DNA from: Spirochaetaceae bacterium
Lineage (GTDB): Bacteria > Spirochaetota > Spirochaetia > WRBN01
Reading direction: 5' to 3'
Length of the DNA stretch: 32,927 bases
Assembly: GCA_009784515.1 (NCBI GenBank)
Contig: WRBN01000010.1
Coordinates: forward strand, 1-32,927
Every line of letters starts with the position of its first letter. Position 1 is the first letter of the stretch. Below, in pieces: positions 7,736-13,791 of the stretch. The notes below the pieces were generated by a model. That model worked only from the letters and a program-made list of their open reading frames with translations, was not told where the DNA came from and did no database searches. A program made the translations under genes and the position numbers.

Positions 7736-9487
7736 TTATTCCTTTAAGTTGTAAAAACTTACCTCGATAGTTAACCTGCCGCTGCCCTGCGTTAAAGCCA
7801 GCGGAAAGGCCAGCCAAATAGCTGCCCCCTGCCTTATCTGTTGTTGTTCGCCGGCAAAATTTAAATGAGTAGATAAAGTTTTAAAATTTAAAATAGCCGG
7901 CTGCGAAAATTTATAATCGAAATGCAGGTCATCTTCATCAATAATCGTTAATTTATTAACATTAGCTATTTGCTCGCCCTGCCAAAATTCATCATTAATT
8001 AATAAGTTAGCCTGCTCACTTAATGAAAGGTAATGACCGCTGCAAAAATAATAATTGGTTAAAATCTCACCTTTAAAGTAATAATTAACTTCGAAGGTAT
8101 TTTTATAATAAATATATTCTTTCTTAATGCTGATTTTCTTTTTGTCTAATATTTTCTCTGTTAAATAATTAACACTATCGGCATCGGGTTGAGTTTTACA
8201 TTGATAAAAATTATCTTCCTTCAATTCTTCTGCCATAACAGCCCAATCACTCTTTATAGGCACAAAAACATCATGAAAAGCCCTTTGCAACGGCCCATCA
8301 TTAAAAATATTAAGTAAATTCTTGCCGGCAGGCAGGTAATCCAGTTCAAATAAAAGCCCACCTGTATGCTGAGTAAAAGCATTATAAATTGCTCCGCGAT
8401 AAAGCACCTCGCCGGCACCATCTAAATCAAAATCCACCTCGATTAAACCGTAATTTAATTTATCACCGCCGGCTAAACTATCGGCCTGTAATAAATTACG
8501 ATAAGCATAATCGCGCAAAACCGGGTTACGAATACCGCCATAACGACTGGCCCAATAAAGTTGGTGATTTTGACTTTGCCACAAAGATTTAAGCGCTAAT
8601 TTCTTTTGGCCTTTATCTTTAGCTAAACGTACGGCCGCCGTTACGGCCAAAGCGCGGGCATAAAGCAAACCGGTTTCTACTTGTTCAAAAAGGTAATTAC
8701 GATAAAAATTATGATTACCGCCCAAAGTTTCGGCCCCAGAAGCCGGCAGGTAAAGCCGCTGCAAAACCATTTGACGTTTTAAATATTTAGCCGGCTGAGT
8801 TAAAGCAATACCGTAACTCTTTAGCTCCTCTAAAAAACCGGCCAACCATTTCGTGTTAAAATCTTTAAATAAAAAAGTTAATAGATTACCGCCCTGTTTC
8901 TCGGCCAGCTGGGCGTAATCGGCTGCCAACTGCCGATAATCTTTACTTGCCTCTAAAGTAAAATAAGGAAAAACCGCCACCGTTTTCGCGGTTTCCTCCA
9001 CTAAATAAGCTTTAAAAAGATTTTTAGCTTTGGCATTAATAAAAAGTTCGGCAGCCACAAAACTATAATTAAAGCTATGAGGGGCCAATATGGCCGGAAA
9101 ACTTGGCTCCCACAGCCCATAGGGCAAAAAAAAGCCGCGTGGCTTGTGTTTGCTAATATCACGCGCCCAAATAGCACTATCCTCAATTTGGCCAAGTCTA
9201 TCTGTATTAGAAATTAATCCAAGTAAGGAATTATCAAAAAGCCCCCCCAGTAGCTCCAATCGTTTATGAGCGGCCAGCTCCTGCCAAATGGTTAATAATT
9301 CGTTATGATTACTTTTAAGCCACTGCGCTCCCTCACGTTCGATAAACAATAAAAAAAAGTACTCGCTCCGGCTATAAAGCAAAGCAGTTAGCTCCTTAAG
9401 CCAGCGGCTGTAATATTTTTCTTTAATAGCTTCGGGCTGAGCCAGCGGAAAATCGCCGGCCAACAGTAAGATTGCTTCCGCTGCCAT
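7736..9487 (-). CDS. GH57-family alpha-glucanotransferase/amylase homologue, probably catalytically inactive
   Basis: The 583-residue product follows the domain order of GH57 4-alpha-glucanotransferases: a seven-stranded barrel, then the helical region and the C-terminal beta domain (EVDFDLDGAGEVLYRGAIYN, then TGGLLFELDYLPAGKNLL). All five GH57 conserved regions can be placed but are degenerate. HQP is AQP (residues 16-18), the GGFYEP-like block is GGLFDN (81-86), and the nucleophile block WLTERVW is FLPYGLW, with Tyr123 where the catalytic Glu stands. The acid/base block is replaced by FKDFNTKW (207-214). The last block, NHQLYWASRYGGI (307-319), keeps its shape. The ATG is 3 bases after the rnfB stop, so it belongs to the rnf operon. 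Fold assignment is good; loss of activity is an inference. Confidence 0.75.
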   Translation of the reverse strand: MAAEAILLLAGDFPLAQPEAIKEKYYSRWLKELTALLYSRSEYFFLLFIEREGAQWLKSNHNELLTIWQELAAHKRLELLGGLFDNSLLGLISNTDRLGQIEDSAIWARDISKHKPRGFFLPYGLWEPSFPAILAPHSFNYSFVAAELFINAKAKNLFKAYLVEETAKTVAVFPYFTLEASKDYRQLAADYAQLAEKQGGNLLTFLFKDFNTKWLAGFLEELKSYGIALTQPAKYLKRQMVLQRLYLPASGAETLGGNHNFYRNYLFEQVETGLLYARALAVTAAVRLAKDKGQKKLALKSLWQSQNHQLYWASRYGGIRNPVLRDYAYRNLLQADSLAGGDKLNYGLIEVDFDLDGAGEVLYRGAIYNAFTQHTGGLLFELDYLPAGKNLLNIFNDGPLQRAFHDVFVPIKSDWAVMAEELKEDNFYQCKTQPDADSVNYLTEKILDKKKISIKKEYIYYKNTFEVNYYFKGEILTNYYFCSGHYLSLSEQANLLINDEFWQGEQIANVNKLTIIDEDDLHFDYKFSQPAILNFKTLSTHLNFAGEQQQIRQGAAIWLAFPLALTQGSGRLTIEVSFYNLKE

Positions 9488-9490
9488 TAG

Positions 9491-10339
9491 CTAGCCCTTT
9501 TCTTGCCGTAATTTACGTAAAAAACGCTTGTGCTCGTCCTTCGCCAGCGGGACAATCGCTCGCGACTCGCACTTAACGGCGGCGCGCCATCTATCTTCCT
9601 GCCCGGTGCGGTAATCTATAGAGCAAAGATTATCTTTAATGCTAAAACCACCCAAAGGCGCTCTCTTAAGACAGGTGCCGCAAGCCATACAGCCAACGCT
9701 ACAAGCGGCAGCGGTAACTTCGGCGTTATCGTGCGAGCTGCAAGCTACAACAAAATCAGCTGCTTTATCGACAAATTTAATCACTTTAGTAGGGCACAAA
9801 ACCACACAACTGCCGCAGCTTTTACATAAATCTTTATGCACATAAGCCAGCCCTTTACTCACCGTGATAGCTTGCTGCGGACAGGAGGCTGCACAATCGC
9901 CCAACCCAATACAGCCATATAAGCATTGCTTAGAATTTAACACATTTAAATGAGCCGCTGCACAACTGGCAACACCGGTATAATTAAAGCGGTACTTGCT
10001 ATGTTGCTTATTGCCCCCGCAAAAAACATACGCTACTTTGTTTGCAGCTATATAATTATAGTTATAAATCTCCTTAAGTTTAGCAATAAAATTTTCTTGC
10101 TCAAAACTTTCTTGCAGACGGCAACGGCGAGCATTTTTCTCTTTATTAAGCAAAAGCGCCTCTAGATAAGCGGCACAACTATGATAACCGCAAAGGCCGC
10201 AATTTTCGCCGGCTAATAACTCGGCAGAGGCTTCACTGCTAACCTTCGGCGGCATCTTTTTACTAAAAAAGAACCAGCTATAAGCCGCAGTTGCCGCTAA
10301 AATTAGCATAAAAATAATAATGAGCACTAATAATATCAT
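9491..10339 (-). CDS. rnfB: Ion-translocating oxidoreductase complex subunit RnfB
   Basis: RnfB is the ferredoxin-accepting iron-sulfur subunit of the membrane Rnf complex. An N-terminal membrane helix (residues 1-25) is followed by the 4Fe-4S domain ENCGLCGYHSCAAYLEA, with Cys47, 50, 55 and 73. Two classical ferredoxin clusters follow: CLYGCIGLGDCAASCP (Cys139, 143, 149, 153) and CKSCGSCVVLCP (Cys172, 175, 178, 182). A further Cys-rich segment, CSVGCMACGTC near 213-223, could hold another cluster. At 282 residues it is of usual length. The ATG follows the rnfA stop directly, with GGAGGG ahead of it. All canonical cysteines are present, in contrast to the flavin sites lost from its partners. 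Confidence 0.92.
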   Translation of the reverse strand: MILLVLIIIFMLILAATAAYSWFFFSKKMPPKVSSEASAELLAGENCGLCGYHSCAAYLEALLLNKEKNARRCRLQESFEQENFIAKLKEIYNYNYIAANKVAYVFCGGNKQHSKYRFNYTGVASCAAAHLNVLNSKQCLYGCIGLGDCAASCPQQAITVSKGLAYVHKDLCKSCGSCVVLCPTKVIKFVDKAADFVVACSSHDNAEVTAAACSVGCMACGTCLKRAPLGGFSIKDNLCSIDYRTGQEDRWRAAVKCESRAIVPLAKDEHKRFLRKLRQEKG

Positions 10340-10891
10340 CTACCCTCCTATATTACTTAATGCCAGTAACATAAGTACCGTTACTATTAAGATGATAGGC
10401 GCCCCGCGCCAAGCTATCGGTGGCTGATTAAGATAAAAATGCCTAAAGATGGCGATGGCCAGCAAAATAGCCGTTAACATAGCTAAAGCCGTCAACAAAG
10501 TAGCAGCTATTATTAAAAGCAGATTACTACTGTATAAAAACGTTAAAGACAGCATAATACTATTAAAAATTAGTAACCAGCCGGCAAAATCGCTATATTT
10601 ATTGGGTTGCAGCCATTTAAAAAAAAGCATTAAAATAGGCATTAAAGCCATAAAAACTAAACTAAAAAAAAGCGGTGTTAAAGCTAAACCTATGCTTAGC
10701 ATAGTATTACTGAATATAGCAAACCCATAACTAAGTAAAGCCGTTACTAACCATGCCCCAAAGATAGATATTACACATAAATAACTTTTTAAACGGTTAC
10801 TCTTGAAGGTTTGCAGTAAACTTTTGCCATAAAAAGAAACAAGCAAATAATTACTGGCCAACATAAAGGCAAAAAATACTCCTAGCTGCAT
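10340..10891 (-). CDS. rnfA: Ion-translocating oxidoreductase complex subunit RnfA
   Basis: RnfA is a six-helix membrane subunit of the Rnf complex, related to NqrE. The start is set at the ATG at 10891 (MQLGVFFAFMLASNYLLVS), which matches the family N-terminus and has AAGGA 8 bases upstream; a longer frame to 10960 would add 23 non-family residues. The product is then 183 residues with six predicted hydrophobic segments. It is divergent: the expected 'NNFVLSRFLG' type segment reads ASNYLLVSFYG. The start overlaps the rnfE stop by 10 bases and the stop abuts the rnfB ATG, so translation is probably coupled. Confidence 0.78.
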   Translation of the reverse strand: MQLGVFFAFMLASNYLLVSFYGKSLLQTFKSNRLKSYLCVISIFGAWLVTALLSYGFAIFSNTMLSIGLALTPLFFSLVFMALMPILMLFFKWLQPNKYSDFAGWLLIFNSIMLSLTFLYSSNLLLIIAATLLTALAMLTAILLAIAIFRHFYLNQPPIAWRGAPIILIVTVLMLLALSNIGG

Positions 10892-11430
10892 CGATATATC
10901 CTTACAATAAAACGCGTTAAAGCTATTAAAGTGGCTGCCAAAATTAAAGCGAGCAGCCACGAAAGCTGCGCATTAAAATGGCCAATAACCATTACCAATA
11001 AGAGTTGCAGCAATTTAGCTAACACAACTATAATTACTAAAATAGCAGAAAAAACTATAATTTGCTTAAGATTACGGCTTAGGCCACCGGCATTATTAAA
11101 AACCTCGTTGTAAAGCACACAAAACCACAAAACTAAAGCCACCAGCGATGGCACTCCATCTTGTAAATCGCTAAACCACAATATGTTAGCTATTGTAGCT
11201 ACAGTAACTACCAACAACATAAACAAAGCCAATCTTATTTCGGCCGGGATATATGGCTTTAACCACCACAAAAACCTACTTAATAAAATAAAAGCAAATA
11301 AATTAAGAACAACTAACAAAGCGGCTAGCCAAAATCCAGCCACCTGAAAGGCCATAAAATTAATAATTACACTTAACATTACAAAATTATGATTATCTAA
11401 AAATTTATAATTTAAAAAAGTATTTTTCAT
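10882..11430 (-). CDS. rnfE: Ion-translocating oxidoreductase complex subunit RnfE
   Basis: RnfE (related to NqrD) pairs with RnfA to form the membrane core that carries electrons across the bilayer in the Rnf complex. The 182-residue product has about six hydrophobic segments. The family-like block IPAEIRLALFMLLVVTVATIANI is recognisable in the middle, but the rest is diverged, so the call leans on position: it lies between rnfD and rnfA in the standard rnfCDGEAB order. The start ATG at 11430 has only a weak GGATAGGT ribosome-binding site and lies 11 bases after the 31-aa peptide gene. Confidence 0.72.
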   Translation of the reverse strand: MKNTFLNYKFLDNHNFVMLSVIINFMAFQVAGFWLAALLVVLNLFAFILLSRFLWWLKPYIPAEIRLALFMLLVVTVATIANILWFSDLQDGVPSLVALVLWFCVLYNEVFNNAGGLSRNLKQIIVFSAILVIIVVLAKLLQLLLVMVIGHFNAQLSWLLALILAATLIALTRFIVRIYRCS

Positions 11431-11441
11431 TACCTATCCAT

Positions 11442-11537
11442 TTAATTAACACTTAATAACATCGTTACAACTACTGCCGTTGTTGCAATTAAAGTAGCCA
11501 CTAACATAATAATAACTAATCGCCATTCTTTGCTCAT
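11442..11537 (-). CDS. 31-residue single-helix membrane peptide in the rnfG position
   Basis: The ATG at 11537 overlaps the rnfD stop in a 4-base ATGA, preceded by AGAGG, which is a strong sign of a translated, coupled gene. The peptide MSKEWRLVIIMLVATL... is one charged N-terminal tail plus one hydrophobic helix, ending at TAA (11442-11444). In rnf operons this slot is held by rnfG, a roughly 190-residue protein with one N-terminal helix and a periplasmic domain carrying covalent FMN. Only the anchor-like part exists here. It may be a relic or a minimal replacement of RnfG, or an unrelated small subunit; no SGAT flavinylation motif is present. Confidence 0.7.
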   Translation of the reverse strand: MSKEWRLVIIMLVATLIATTAVVVTMLLSVN

Positions 11538-12445
11538 TTAATCCTCTGATACCTTTGCTGCCAAAGATAACGCACCATCGTATTTATAAGTAAATTAACA
11601 AAACTCATTACAAAAATAGCATAAAAAATATCCCCATTAACCAATGGCCCCAGCAAAATAGTTAATAAAGCCAGCAGTACCGCATAAATAATACCACCCA
11701 ACCCACTGTGAGGCAACCCTTCATTCGCCGAAGCCAAAATAAAAAGCCCCACCAAGAACCCCTCATTACTTAAATTAAATAAAATATCGAAATTAAAAAT
11801 ATAATTAATGAAAATATATATTACCAAAAACATTATAGTTATTAAAGGTGAACGTAACTTAAAGAGCCAAATAAAAATAACAGCTATTACCAGCAGGCCG
11901 CTGCCATTAATGATTGCTCCCCCGTTAATACCCATAAAATTATGAACAAAAACAGCTAAAAAACTATCCGACGGCAAGGCGAGCAGCCATTGATACCAAT
12001 CGTAATTTAAAGGGGCCAAAGGCTGCGGCTGCCAAAACAAATTGGGCCACAACATAGCACTAAGGCTATAGGCTACCACCGCCGGGTTGACCAAAGCGTT
12101 ACCAAAACCACCAAAAACTTGCCTGCTAATAAATATAGCCAAAAAACTGCTGATAAAAGCCGGCCACAGCGAGCCCAGCGGAAAAATAAGCGCCCACAGC
12201 ACGGCAAAAGGCAAAGAAGAAAGGCAGCAAGCCCTAAGCGGATAGCGCTTAAAGAGGTAACCCAAAGCGGCAGCTAACAATACTCCCGCTAAAACGACAA
12301 TAAGCAACCATAGTTTTGCATAACCATACAAGAAAACACTGTAAACAAAAGCAGGCATTAAAGCCAACGTAAACAGTAAATTACTGCTTAAATTGGTAAG
12401 TTTGTGATGGATATGCGGGGCATTAGCGTAAACAGGTAACTTCAT
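11534..12445 (-). CDS. rnfD: Ion-translocating oxidoreductase complex subunit RnfD, lacking the flavin attachment motif
   Basis: RnfD (NqrB-related) is a membrane subunit that normally carries an FMN linked to Thr in an SGAT motif. The 303-residue product has about nine hydrophobic segments. Recognisable family blocks are FGGFGNALVNPAVVAYSLSA near residues 110-130 and EGFLVGLFILASANEGLPHSG in the C-terminal third. The stretch between them, where the flavin-bearing SGAT should be, reads LAPLNYDWYQWLLALPSDSF and contains no such motif. The start ATG is 1 base after the rnfC stop; the stop overlaps the next small gene as ATGA. Confidence 0.85.
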   Translation of the reverse strand: MKLPVYANAPHIHHKLTNLSSNLLFTLALMPAFVYSVFLYGYAKLWLLIVVLAGVLLAAALGYLFKRYPLRACCLSSLPFAVLWALIFPLGSLWPAFISSFLAIFISRQVFGGFGNALVNPAVVAYSLSAMLWPNLFWQPQPLAPLNYDWYQWLLALPSDSFLAVFVHNFMGINGGAIINGSGLLVIAVIFIWLFKLRSPLITIMFLVIYIFINYIFNFDILFNLSNEGFLVGLFILASANEGLPHSGLGGIIYAVLLALLTILLGPLVNGDIFYAIFVMSFVNLLINTMVRYLWQQRYQRIK

Positions 12446-12446
12446 T

Positions 12447-13682
12447 TTAATTAGTCCTCGTTAATTTAGTTGCCAATTTAAAGGCAGCCGCCATATCAAA
12501 CCTAGCGGGGCAAAGGTAAGAGCACAGCCCGCAGCTAACACACTCACTTAAAAACATTTTATTAACCAAATCGAGACGGCCGGCGGTTATTCCTTTATAC
12601 ATTTCGTAAGGAATAAGTTTTTTAGGGCAATTAGCCACACATTTATAACAATGGCAGCACTCGCCGGTGGGCCTTACCGCCGCTTCGGCGGCCGTTAAAG
12701 CCAGTACGGTATGAATATCTTTAGTTACCGCCGCCTCTTTAGTTACCGCCACGTAACCGCTCATCGCCCCGCCGACCACTAAACGTGCCGCTTTGCGCTT
12801 AAAACCGCCGCATTCATCAAATAAAAAAGTTAAAGGTGTTCCTATCGCCACCATCATTACAGCGTTCTCGGTTAAAGCCGCACCACCGACACTCACTAAC
12901 TGCCTGTTATGAGCTTCGCCATAAACTAAGGCATTATAAAGAGTAAATAAAGTAGTTACATGTAAAATTAAACTAGATTGACCAAATTTTTCTTTAAGCA
13001 GTCGCTCATTAGCGGCAAGGTAACTATCGTTAAAAACGCAAAGTTCTCCATGCCCTTCCACCAACTCTTTAATTTTAATAGCTTTATTTAGATTGGCTTT
13101 GGTAGTGCAAATAATAACCTGTTCGGTTAAAATTAATTGGGTTACTATTTTTATAGCCTTAATTAATTCGTCTAGATACTCATTAAGCAAAAATTGCCCG
13201 TTAAAGCAGTAAGGGTCGGGCTCTAGTAAATTAATAACTAATTTGTTGACAGAGCTAACATTAAGTTTTAAATGCAACGGCAAAGCCGTAATAGTATCTA
13301 CCACCCCTAAACGTTTTAACTCTGCCAATAAAGTTTTATTATCTAAACTAGATAAATCATTCTCTCTTTTTTTATGCTTAACAAAATTACCACCGGTCTC
13401 TATTTTGATAGAGGTGATTAATTCATTACCTTTAATTTGCGGCGAAATAGCTACTACCTCACCCGGTACCGAGCTATGAATATTTACCCCTTCGGCACCA
13501 TCGGCGATGGCAATAAGGCCATTTTCTTCTATATTTTGGCCCACATTAACCATAACAATAGAGGGCTTACCTTTATGTTGTTTGGCACTAATATAAGCCT
13601 CTCTAGGCAAAGCGGCGTAGGTTATCTTTTGGTTTTTAATAGCTTTGCTGCGCTTTAACTTAAGTGCCTTAAGGCTTAACAT
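12447..13682 (-). CDS. rnfC: Ion-translocating oxidoreductase complex subunit RnfC, flavin loop degenerate
   Basis: RnfC is the peripheral NADH-side subunit of Rnf. The 411-residue product has the N-terminal hybrid domain (VMVNVGQNIEENGLIAIADG, then HSSVPGEVVAI), a central Rossmann-like region and a C-terminal region with two 4Fe-4S clusters, CHCYKCVANCP near 343-352 and CVSCGLCSYLCP near 381-391. The glycine-rich loop that binds FMN/NADH in RnfC and NuoF (GMGGAGFPTxxK) is replaced by GVVDTITALPLHLKL, and the following NGAECEPY block reads NLLEPDPYC. Iron-sulfur ligands are intact. This is the first gene of the operon, with a promoter 19 bases upstream. Confidence 0.87.
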   Translation of the reverse strand: MLSLKALKLKRSKAIKNQKITYAALPREAYISAKQHKGKPSIVMVNVGQNIEENGLIAIADGAEGVNIHSSVPGEVVAISPQIKGNELITSIKIETGGNFVKHKKRENDLSSLDNKTLLAELKRLGVVDTITALPLHLKLNVSSVNKLVINLLEPDPYCFNGQFLLNEYLDELIKAIKIVTQLILTEQVIICTTKANLNKAIKIKELVEGHGELCVFNDSYLAANERLLKEKFGQSSLILHVTTLFTLYNALVYGEAHNRQLVSVGGAALTENAVMMVAIGTPLTFLFDECGGFKRKAARLVVGGAMSGYVAVTKEAAVTKDIHTVLALTAAEAAVRPTGECCHCYKCVANCPKKLIPYEMYKGITAGRLDLVNKMFLSECVSCGLCSYLCPARFDMAAAFKLATKLTRTN

Positions 13683-13700: not shown

Positions 13701-13729
13701 ATCATAACACTAATTAATCTTTTAGTAAA
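13701..13729 (-). promoter_or_regulatory. Promoter of the rnf operon
   Basis: On the minus strand TTTACT (13729-13724) and TATGAT (13706-13701) are 17 bases apart, and TG at the -15 position makes it an extended -10. Transcription would start about 12 bases before the rnfC ATG. Confidence 0.55.
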
Positions 13730-13763: not shown

Positions 13764-13791
13764 AAAAAAACCCTGCTAAGCAGGGTTTTTT
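13764..13791 (-). terminator. Intrinsic terminator after the FlaA-like gene
   Basis: The stem CCCTGC/GCAGGG with a 3-base loop is flanked by seven A's on one side and six T's on the other, so it can work on both strands. It lies just downstream of the minus-strand FlaA-like gene. Confidence 0.85.

Follow-up and report, generated by a model that had tools for sequence, protein, structure and literature searches.

The rnf operon of a Spirochaetaceae bacterium probably encodes (we would give this reading about 60%) a distinct spirochaetal complex of the Rnf type, maintained by selection, that has lost the FMN of RnfC, RnfD and RnfG together with the [2Fe-2S] cluster of RnfA/E, and whose RnfB' and RnfC' would form a cytoplasmic Fe-S relay or sensor. 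The operon lies in a stretch of 32,927 nucleotides, hereafter the window, from an assembly of 1.83 Mb that is 95% complete and belongs to the class holding Treponema. Below we describe the operon, its relatives among spirochaetes, and the bearing of both on the Rnf of Treponema pallidum.

The rnf operon of the window

Homologous RnfC, RnfD and RnfB are encoded within a single operon, whose extent had been given initially as 11442-13682; this was too short, as the unit runs on to 7736 and also takes in RnfE, RnfA, RnfB and a GH57-like gene. The individual open reading frames have the coordinates given earlier, and they are unbroken and translationally coupled, with no frameshift found among them. 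Of the tight packing and promoter that had been described, the packing and coupling hold, but the promoter is a match to 9 of 12 consensus positions, and matches of such quality show only a moderate excess over shuffled sequences. The features are as follows.

13765..13791, plus strand: palindromic terminator-like stem of 12 pairs, between the flaA-like gene and rnfC'
13701..13729, minus strand: promoter-like match upstream of rnfC' (9/12 consensus positions, weak evidence)
13682-7736, minus strand: rnf operon, order rnfC-D-[31 aa]-E-A-B-GH57
12447..13682, minus strand: rnfC' (411 aa) with the fold of RnfC and two [4Fe-4S] clusters; FMN/NADH site absent
13263..13307, minus strand: former FMN/NADH glycine-rich loop of rnfC', now GVVDTITALPLHLKL (alignments)
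12510..12659, minus strand: two intact CxxCxxCxxxCP [4Fe-4S] motifs of rnfC', 8/8 cluster cysteines
11534..12445, minus strand: rnfD' (303 aa), membrane subunit without the flavinylated Thr motif (PF03116 4.9e-27; 9eri_D 7.7e-14)
11996..12043, minus strand: stretch of rnfD' at the expected S/T-x-A-T flavinylation site, NLFWQPQPLAPLNYDW (alignments)
11442..11537, minus strand: ORF of 31 aa (one helix) at the place of rnfG, its start overlapping the rnfD' stop, no family match
10882..11430, minus strand: rnfE' (182 aa), from operon position and weak homology (E 0.007, canonical RnfE profile)
10340..10891, minus strand: rnfA' (183 aa from ATG), full-length match to the canonical RnfA profile (E 1.6e-4)
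9491..10339, minus strand: rnfB' (282 aa), NF005503 5.6e-46, 7zc6_B 1.5e-34, 20 cluster cysteines = five [4Fe-4S]
7736..9487, minus strand: GH57 / 4-alpha-glucanotransferase-like gene (PF03065 3.5e-11)

Cofactor sites lost and kept

RnfC' is recognisable by its profile match (TIGR01945, 1.2e-60, under that model's cut-off), by its similarity to 7zc6_C (E 2.1e-39) and to the RnfC of C. tetanomorphum, A. vinelandii and A. woodii (E 2e-39 to 3e-29), and by an AlphaFold model (pTM 0.71) whose top PDB match is 9eri_C (TM 0.72), the C-terminal cluster region being modelled with low confidence. The initial annotation had claimed that the glycine-rich FMN/NADH loop was missing, and the alignment bears this out, since it contains no shifted loop and reveals the loss of two further motifs. 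In place of GMGGATFPTHVKL in the characterised RnfC (7zc6_C) stands GVVDTITALPLHLKL, and the ECEPY and YPQGxEK motifs conserved in canonical RnfC are replaced by LLEPDPY and YLAANER, such that three motifs in all, the G-x-GG-x-x-(F)P-T loop, NxxECEPY and YPQGxEK, are lost relative to both the characterised and the fetched canonical RnfC proteins.

The flavinylation motif D-x-V-S/T-x-A-T-P/V-L, present in all canonical relatives, is absent from RnfD' of the window, so that alignment upholds the missing SGAT-type motif reported before. RnfG is likewise reduced to a 31-residue helix, as had been stated, and the next gene follows 11 bases on, leaving no space for a shifted FMN domain. Searches of the whole genome, which is 95% complete, detected no FMN_bind domain, no ApbE and no canonical RnfA/E, and neither the second canonical rnf operon nor the free rnfG nor the apbE that had been listed as counter-evidence to look for turned up. 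Genome-wide loss of flavin use is rejected as the cause, because the flavin biosynthesis gene RibF is present, as are HydB and PrdC, whose FMN loops are intact, and, in the window itself, MnmG.

The statement that the complex kept its iron-sulfur clusters is true of the cytoplasmic ones (RnfC 8/8, RnfB 20 cysteines) but not of the membrane [2Fe-2S] cluster. The Pfam search returned no PF02508 match (the RnfA/RnfE membrane pair) for either RnfA' or RnfE' of the window. RnfA' has lost both cluster cysteines (GKSLLQ for GLCPFL; FNSIML for TNCAVL), and RnfE' the first, the second possibly being kept as Cys104, so at most one of the four remains. The structure model of RnfE' is poor (pLDDT 58), and this putative subunit is named mainly by synteny, with weak similarity in addition. 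The 20 cysteines of RnfB', making up five clusters, are identical to the set of some canonical spirochaete RnfB; absence of the last half-cluster was considered as a mark of the lineage and rejected, since some canonical spirochaete RnfB also lack it.

Losses shared with a sister genus

The family of the window is sampled by two genomes, each about 95% complete. The second one, G001, belongs to a different genus and carries the same rnf operon with GH57 downstream, at an identity of 34% for RnfC, 30% for RnfD, 28% for RnfE, 25% for RnfA and 32% for RnfB, and the GH57-like proteins are syntenic homologues (L034:2228-4063, E 7.9e-83). Every cofactor loss of the window operon recurs in G001: its RnfD, RnfE and RnfA contain zero cysteines (0/4 of the membrane cluster), at the position of rnfG it has a 172-aa protein that lacks FMN_bind, and ApbE, FMN_bind and PF02508 are all absent from its genome. 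The cysteines of the cytoplasmic clusters coincide in the two operons, 8/8 in RnfC and 19/20 in RnfB. That two genera whose proteins are 25-34% identical have the same losses and yet retain all ligands of the cytoplasmic Fe-S clusters, and that the locus type is maintained in other spirochaetes, argues against random decay, as the initial annotation had held.

These data also bear on the idea of a working Rnf pump that employs substitute cofactors or sites of an unrecognised kind, such as a non-covalent flavin or partner subunits in trans. The alignments carry no verdict on RnfD-bound riboflavin, RnfC' has retained its fold and RibF is present, all of which would suit such a pump; however, FMN_bind, ApbE and canonical RnfA/E are missing from both family genomes, the ligands of the membrane cluster are gone, and RnfA, RnfE and RnfD of the sister genus have no cysteine at all, so we regard it as very improbable.

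Overlapping rnfC' in G001 is a gene for a 699-aa multi-pass membrane protein (L034 8797-10896) that has no Pfam match, lacks the DKTGT motif and has marginal P-type-ATPase/copper-chaperone similarity only; it is possibly a dead P-type ATPase within the same operon.

A separate Rnf lineage of Spirochaetia

The survey of related spirochaetes proposed with the initial annotation yielded more loci of this kind. Among 297 genomes of the class, those with RnfD were taken, those with FMN_bind subtracted, and the RnfC loops then inspected. The locus type occurs in 12 genomes of seven families, being found, complete or partial, in G143, G149, G238, G076, G280, G082, G013, G038, G161 and G014 besides the window genome and G001, with the recurring order DUF212 - (480-aa membrane protein) - rnfC - rnfD - rnfG slot - rnfE - rnfA - (rnfB) - GH57-like. 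An IQ-TREE analysis covered 27 RnfC proteins and put the 12 from these loci on one side of a branch with support of 98/95 and 100% of bootstraps; three long branches among them make the inner order of the tree unsure. RnfC of the window lies within this clade and the GH57-like gene lies downstream, while no DUF212 precedes rnfC in the window (a FlaA gene is found there) or in G001 (the 699-aa membrane protein). On tree and synteny, the window operon is thus a member of a separate Rnf lineage of Spirochaetia and not peculiar to one genome, and, as judged from sequence, the locus DUF212 - rnfC'-D'-G'-E'-A'-(B') - GH57-like is a descendant of Rnf. Two Rnf loci, a stripped one (L098) and an intact canonical one (L051), occur together in the treponeme-family genome G238, so the stripped locus is a second system there and not merely a decayed sole copy.

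Several further loci were met in the survey. The seemingly canonical RnfA/E of G014 were ruled out as a case of co-existence with Rnf, as they sit in an NQR-type operon (L094 4790-8683, a B-C-D-E-F set in which an adjacent NqrA/RnfC-like gene went undetected), and a Borrelia-type PF02508 match (G172) was set aside because no locus surrounds it. An RnfC homologue from Phycisphaerae (L046 8902-10386) keeps its Fe-S clusters and lacks the FMN loop; it is a stand-alone gene with no operon and so was rejected as a lineage member, and by its sequence it is an independent loop loss outside spirochaetes. Treponeme-type loci have, immediately before rnfC', a gene for an unclassified membrane protein of ~480 aa without Pfam match (L075 9919-11358, L076 10167-11591, L098 4257-5747), and two otherwise canonical treponeme-family Rnf operons (L047 9321-9629, L048 7172-7543) have an apparently very short RnfB (~100 aa) after rnfA. 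No close relative of the window emerged from the scan of genome contigs.

Graded loss under selection

The eight cluster cysteines of RnfC are kept in 12/12 lineage members, and the other cofactor sites are lost by degrees. The FMN-type RnfC loop persists in G013 and G038, and a flavin-type motif in RnfD of G014. All four [2Fe-2S] cysteines are retained in G013, as they are in G280, where the loop is lost, and in G082 only those of RnfE remain. Both the loop and all four cysteines are gone from the window (except Cys104 of RnfE), G001, G143, G149, the second copy of G238, G161 and T. pallidum. An rnfB' was found in no lineage member other than the window, G001, G280 and G238. At the former flavin loop of RnfD' most members, excluding the window and G001, have acquired a conserved, lineage-specific insertion.

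Homologues of the GH57-like protein of the window were compared in the loci L034, L075, L076, L078, L079, L080, L093 and L098. Members differ in the glutamate of the ER-x-WEP motif: G013, G038, G082 and G280 have it, and it is missing from the window, G001, G143, G149, G238 and T. pallidum, the window protein reading PYGLWEP where locus members elsewhere have (A/T)ERIWEP. The members without it are just those in which the RnfA/E cluster cysteines are completely or almost completely gone, a pattern that suggests that the GH57-like protein and the RnfA/E cluster may decay or change role together.

A functionless operon degenerating towards loss would account for this gradation, which includes rnfG, rnfB and the GH57 glutamate, and for the neighbouring gene in G001 being a diverged membrane protein as well. 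It is disfavoured and very improbable, since no internal stop codon is found within the subunits of the loci examined, since dN/dS for the rnf and GH57 genes lies at 0.15-0.31 in a comparison of the treponeme loci of G143 and G149 (dS being close to saturation), since the cofactor sites are hit while the cytoplasmic cluster ligands stay, and since the locus is kept in the 1.14-Mb genome of T. pallidum.

Comparison with known systems

With the Rnf (RnfABCDGE) of A. woodii, C. tetanomorphum and A. vinelandii the window complex shares homologous subunits (clearly so for RnfC, RnfD and RnfB, by position and weak similarity for RnfA' and RnfE'), the C-D-G-E-A-B order, the RnfC fold and the [4Fe-4S] motifs of RnfC and RnfB, whereas it lacks the FMN/NADH site of RnfC, a flavinylated RnfD, the FMN domain of RnfG, the membrane [2Fe-2S] cluster and a genomic ApbE. 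The membrane core is also common to Na+-NQR (NqrA-F), which has flavins, a [2Fe-2S] core and NqrF, none of which the window complex has; an RnfC homologue free of redox cofactors has its precedent in NqrA (PMC12174285). The NQR/RNF-like flavinylated clusters of Meheust et al. (PMC8238504) are likewise incomplete sets of Rnf/Nqr genes in which the electron flow is changed; however, they are defined by flavinylation, which the window complex has lost. In the same genome, a PrdC-type protein (G000:C39, L035) has the RnfC/NuoF-like domain in common with rnfC', but retains GMGGAGFPT and ECEP, lacks the dicluster and stands beside proline-reductase-like genes. That region (L035 2140-7777) comprises a PrdA-like gene, a PrdB-like piece and the PrdC-like RnfC relative, and Stickland metabolism in the host is possible.

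Possible function of the stripped complex

The final step of Rnf is the transfer of electrons from FMN-C to NAD+. Before it, electrons pass from the RnfB clusters to the [2Fe-2S] cluster of RnfA/E, then to FMN-G, FMN-D, riboflavin-D, the RnfC clusters and FMN-C (PMC12174285). The redox centres that demonstrably remain in the window complex are the cytoplasmic clusters of RnfB and RnfC. Because the membrane [2Fe-2S], FMN-G and FMN-D are missing, the complex cannot use the known mechanism to pump by redox chemistry: given the losses found, there would be no electron transfer across the membrane and back, no NAD+ reduction and no ferredoxin:NAD+ ion pump. A ferredoxin:NAD+ redox pump is therefore effectively excluded by the predicted proteins. 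Of the functions proposed initially, the simplified ion pump is not supported, every testable cofactor of the transmembrane electron path being absent; disuse of NADH is supported by losses common to the sister genus while all cytoplasmic Fe-S ligands are kept; and an electron relay is possible.

We envisage that RnfB' and RnfC' would constitute an Fe-S relay or redox sensor, anchored to the membrane and facing the cytoplasm, taking low-potential electrons from ferredoxin or flavodoxin and passing them on, or giving a signal, to a putative partner that may dock at the former NAD/FMN site. RnfD', RnfE' and RnfA' could then serve as a scaffold, or could change conformation or conduct ions independently of redox cofactors. 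Relay, sensor and scaffold fit the sequence alike, and since the loci of T. pallidum, G143 and G149 are without rnfB', a relay from RnfB' to RnfC' would not be universal.

The main rival is a redox-independent role of the membrane core, in which RnfD', RnfE' and RnfA' would be a cofactor-free transporter, channel or assembly/signalling scaffold, gated or stabilised by the Fe-S clusters of RnfC'. All four membrane positions persist even where RnfB and every transmembrane redox site are gone, the RnfD flavin loop has given way to the new insertion in most members, and the locus is associated with DUF212 and the GH57-like protein, all of which speak for such a role; yet no ion motif or transported substrate was identified, and the strict keeping of the eight Fe-S cysteines of RnfC' suggests redox use. 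We hold it to be unlikely, at a clear distance above degeneration or a pump with substitute cofactors, and prefer the Fe-S relay or sensor.

Implications for Treponema pallidum

The genome G076 is a single contig of 1,139,633 bases, and its troA product is a match to the solved TroA structures of T. pallidum (1toa, 1k0f). Its rnf locus (L079), the sole Rnf locus detected in that genome, is of the stripped type, without rnfB, flavin sites or membrane-cluster ligands; no canonical RnfA/E was found in the genome, and of its two FMN_bind matches none was recognised in the rnfG slot. A flavin-based RNF model of T. pallidum reportedly goes back to a 2015 mBio paper. Published energy models of the organism centre on this "flavin-based RNF complex," termed noncanonical and putative (PMC7512555, PMC10194888), and assume flavin-driven pumping, whereas L079 belongs to the stripped lineage. 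No report of Rnf cofactor losses was found in the literature searched, in which subscription papers are thinly covered and prior notice is thus possible.

The genes of Rnf are treated as one unit and read as evidence of a flavin-based ion pump. Since rnf genes persist here under selection without the tested flavin sites or the membrane cluster, the presence of the genes does not imply pumping, and the stepwise loss of cofactors offers a natural series for asking what the Rnf membrane subunits do without redox chemistry. We see an even chance that a neofunctionalised, non-pumping Rnf paralogue extends across part of Spirochaetia and that the only "Rnf" of T. pallidum is of the same kind. If so, T. 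pallidum would be without an Rnf redox pump, its ion gradient would be made otherwise, and the stripped Rnf would provide an Fe-S-dependent membrane function. The stripped L079 bears directly on the flavin-based RNF proposed for T. pallidum (PMC7512555, PMC10194888), and a long-standing question about its energy supply becomes testable.
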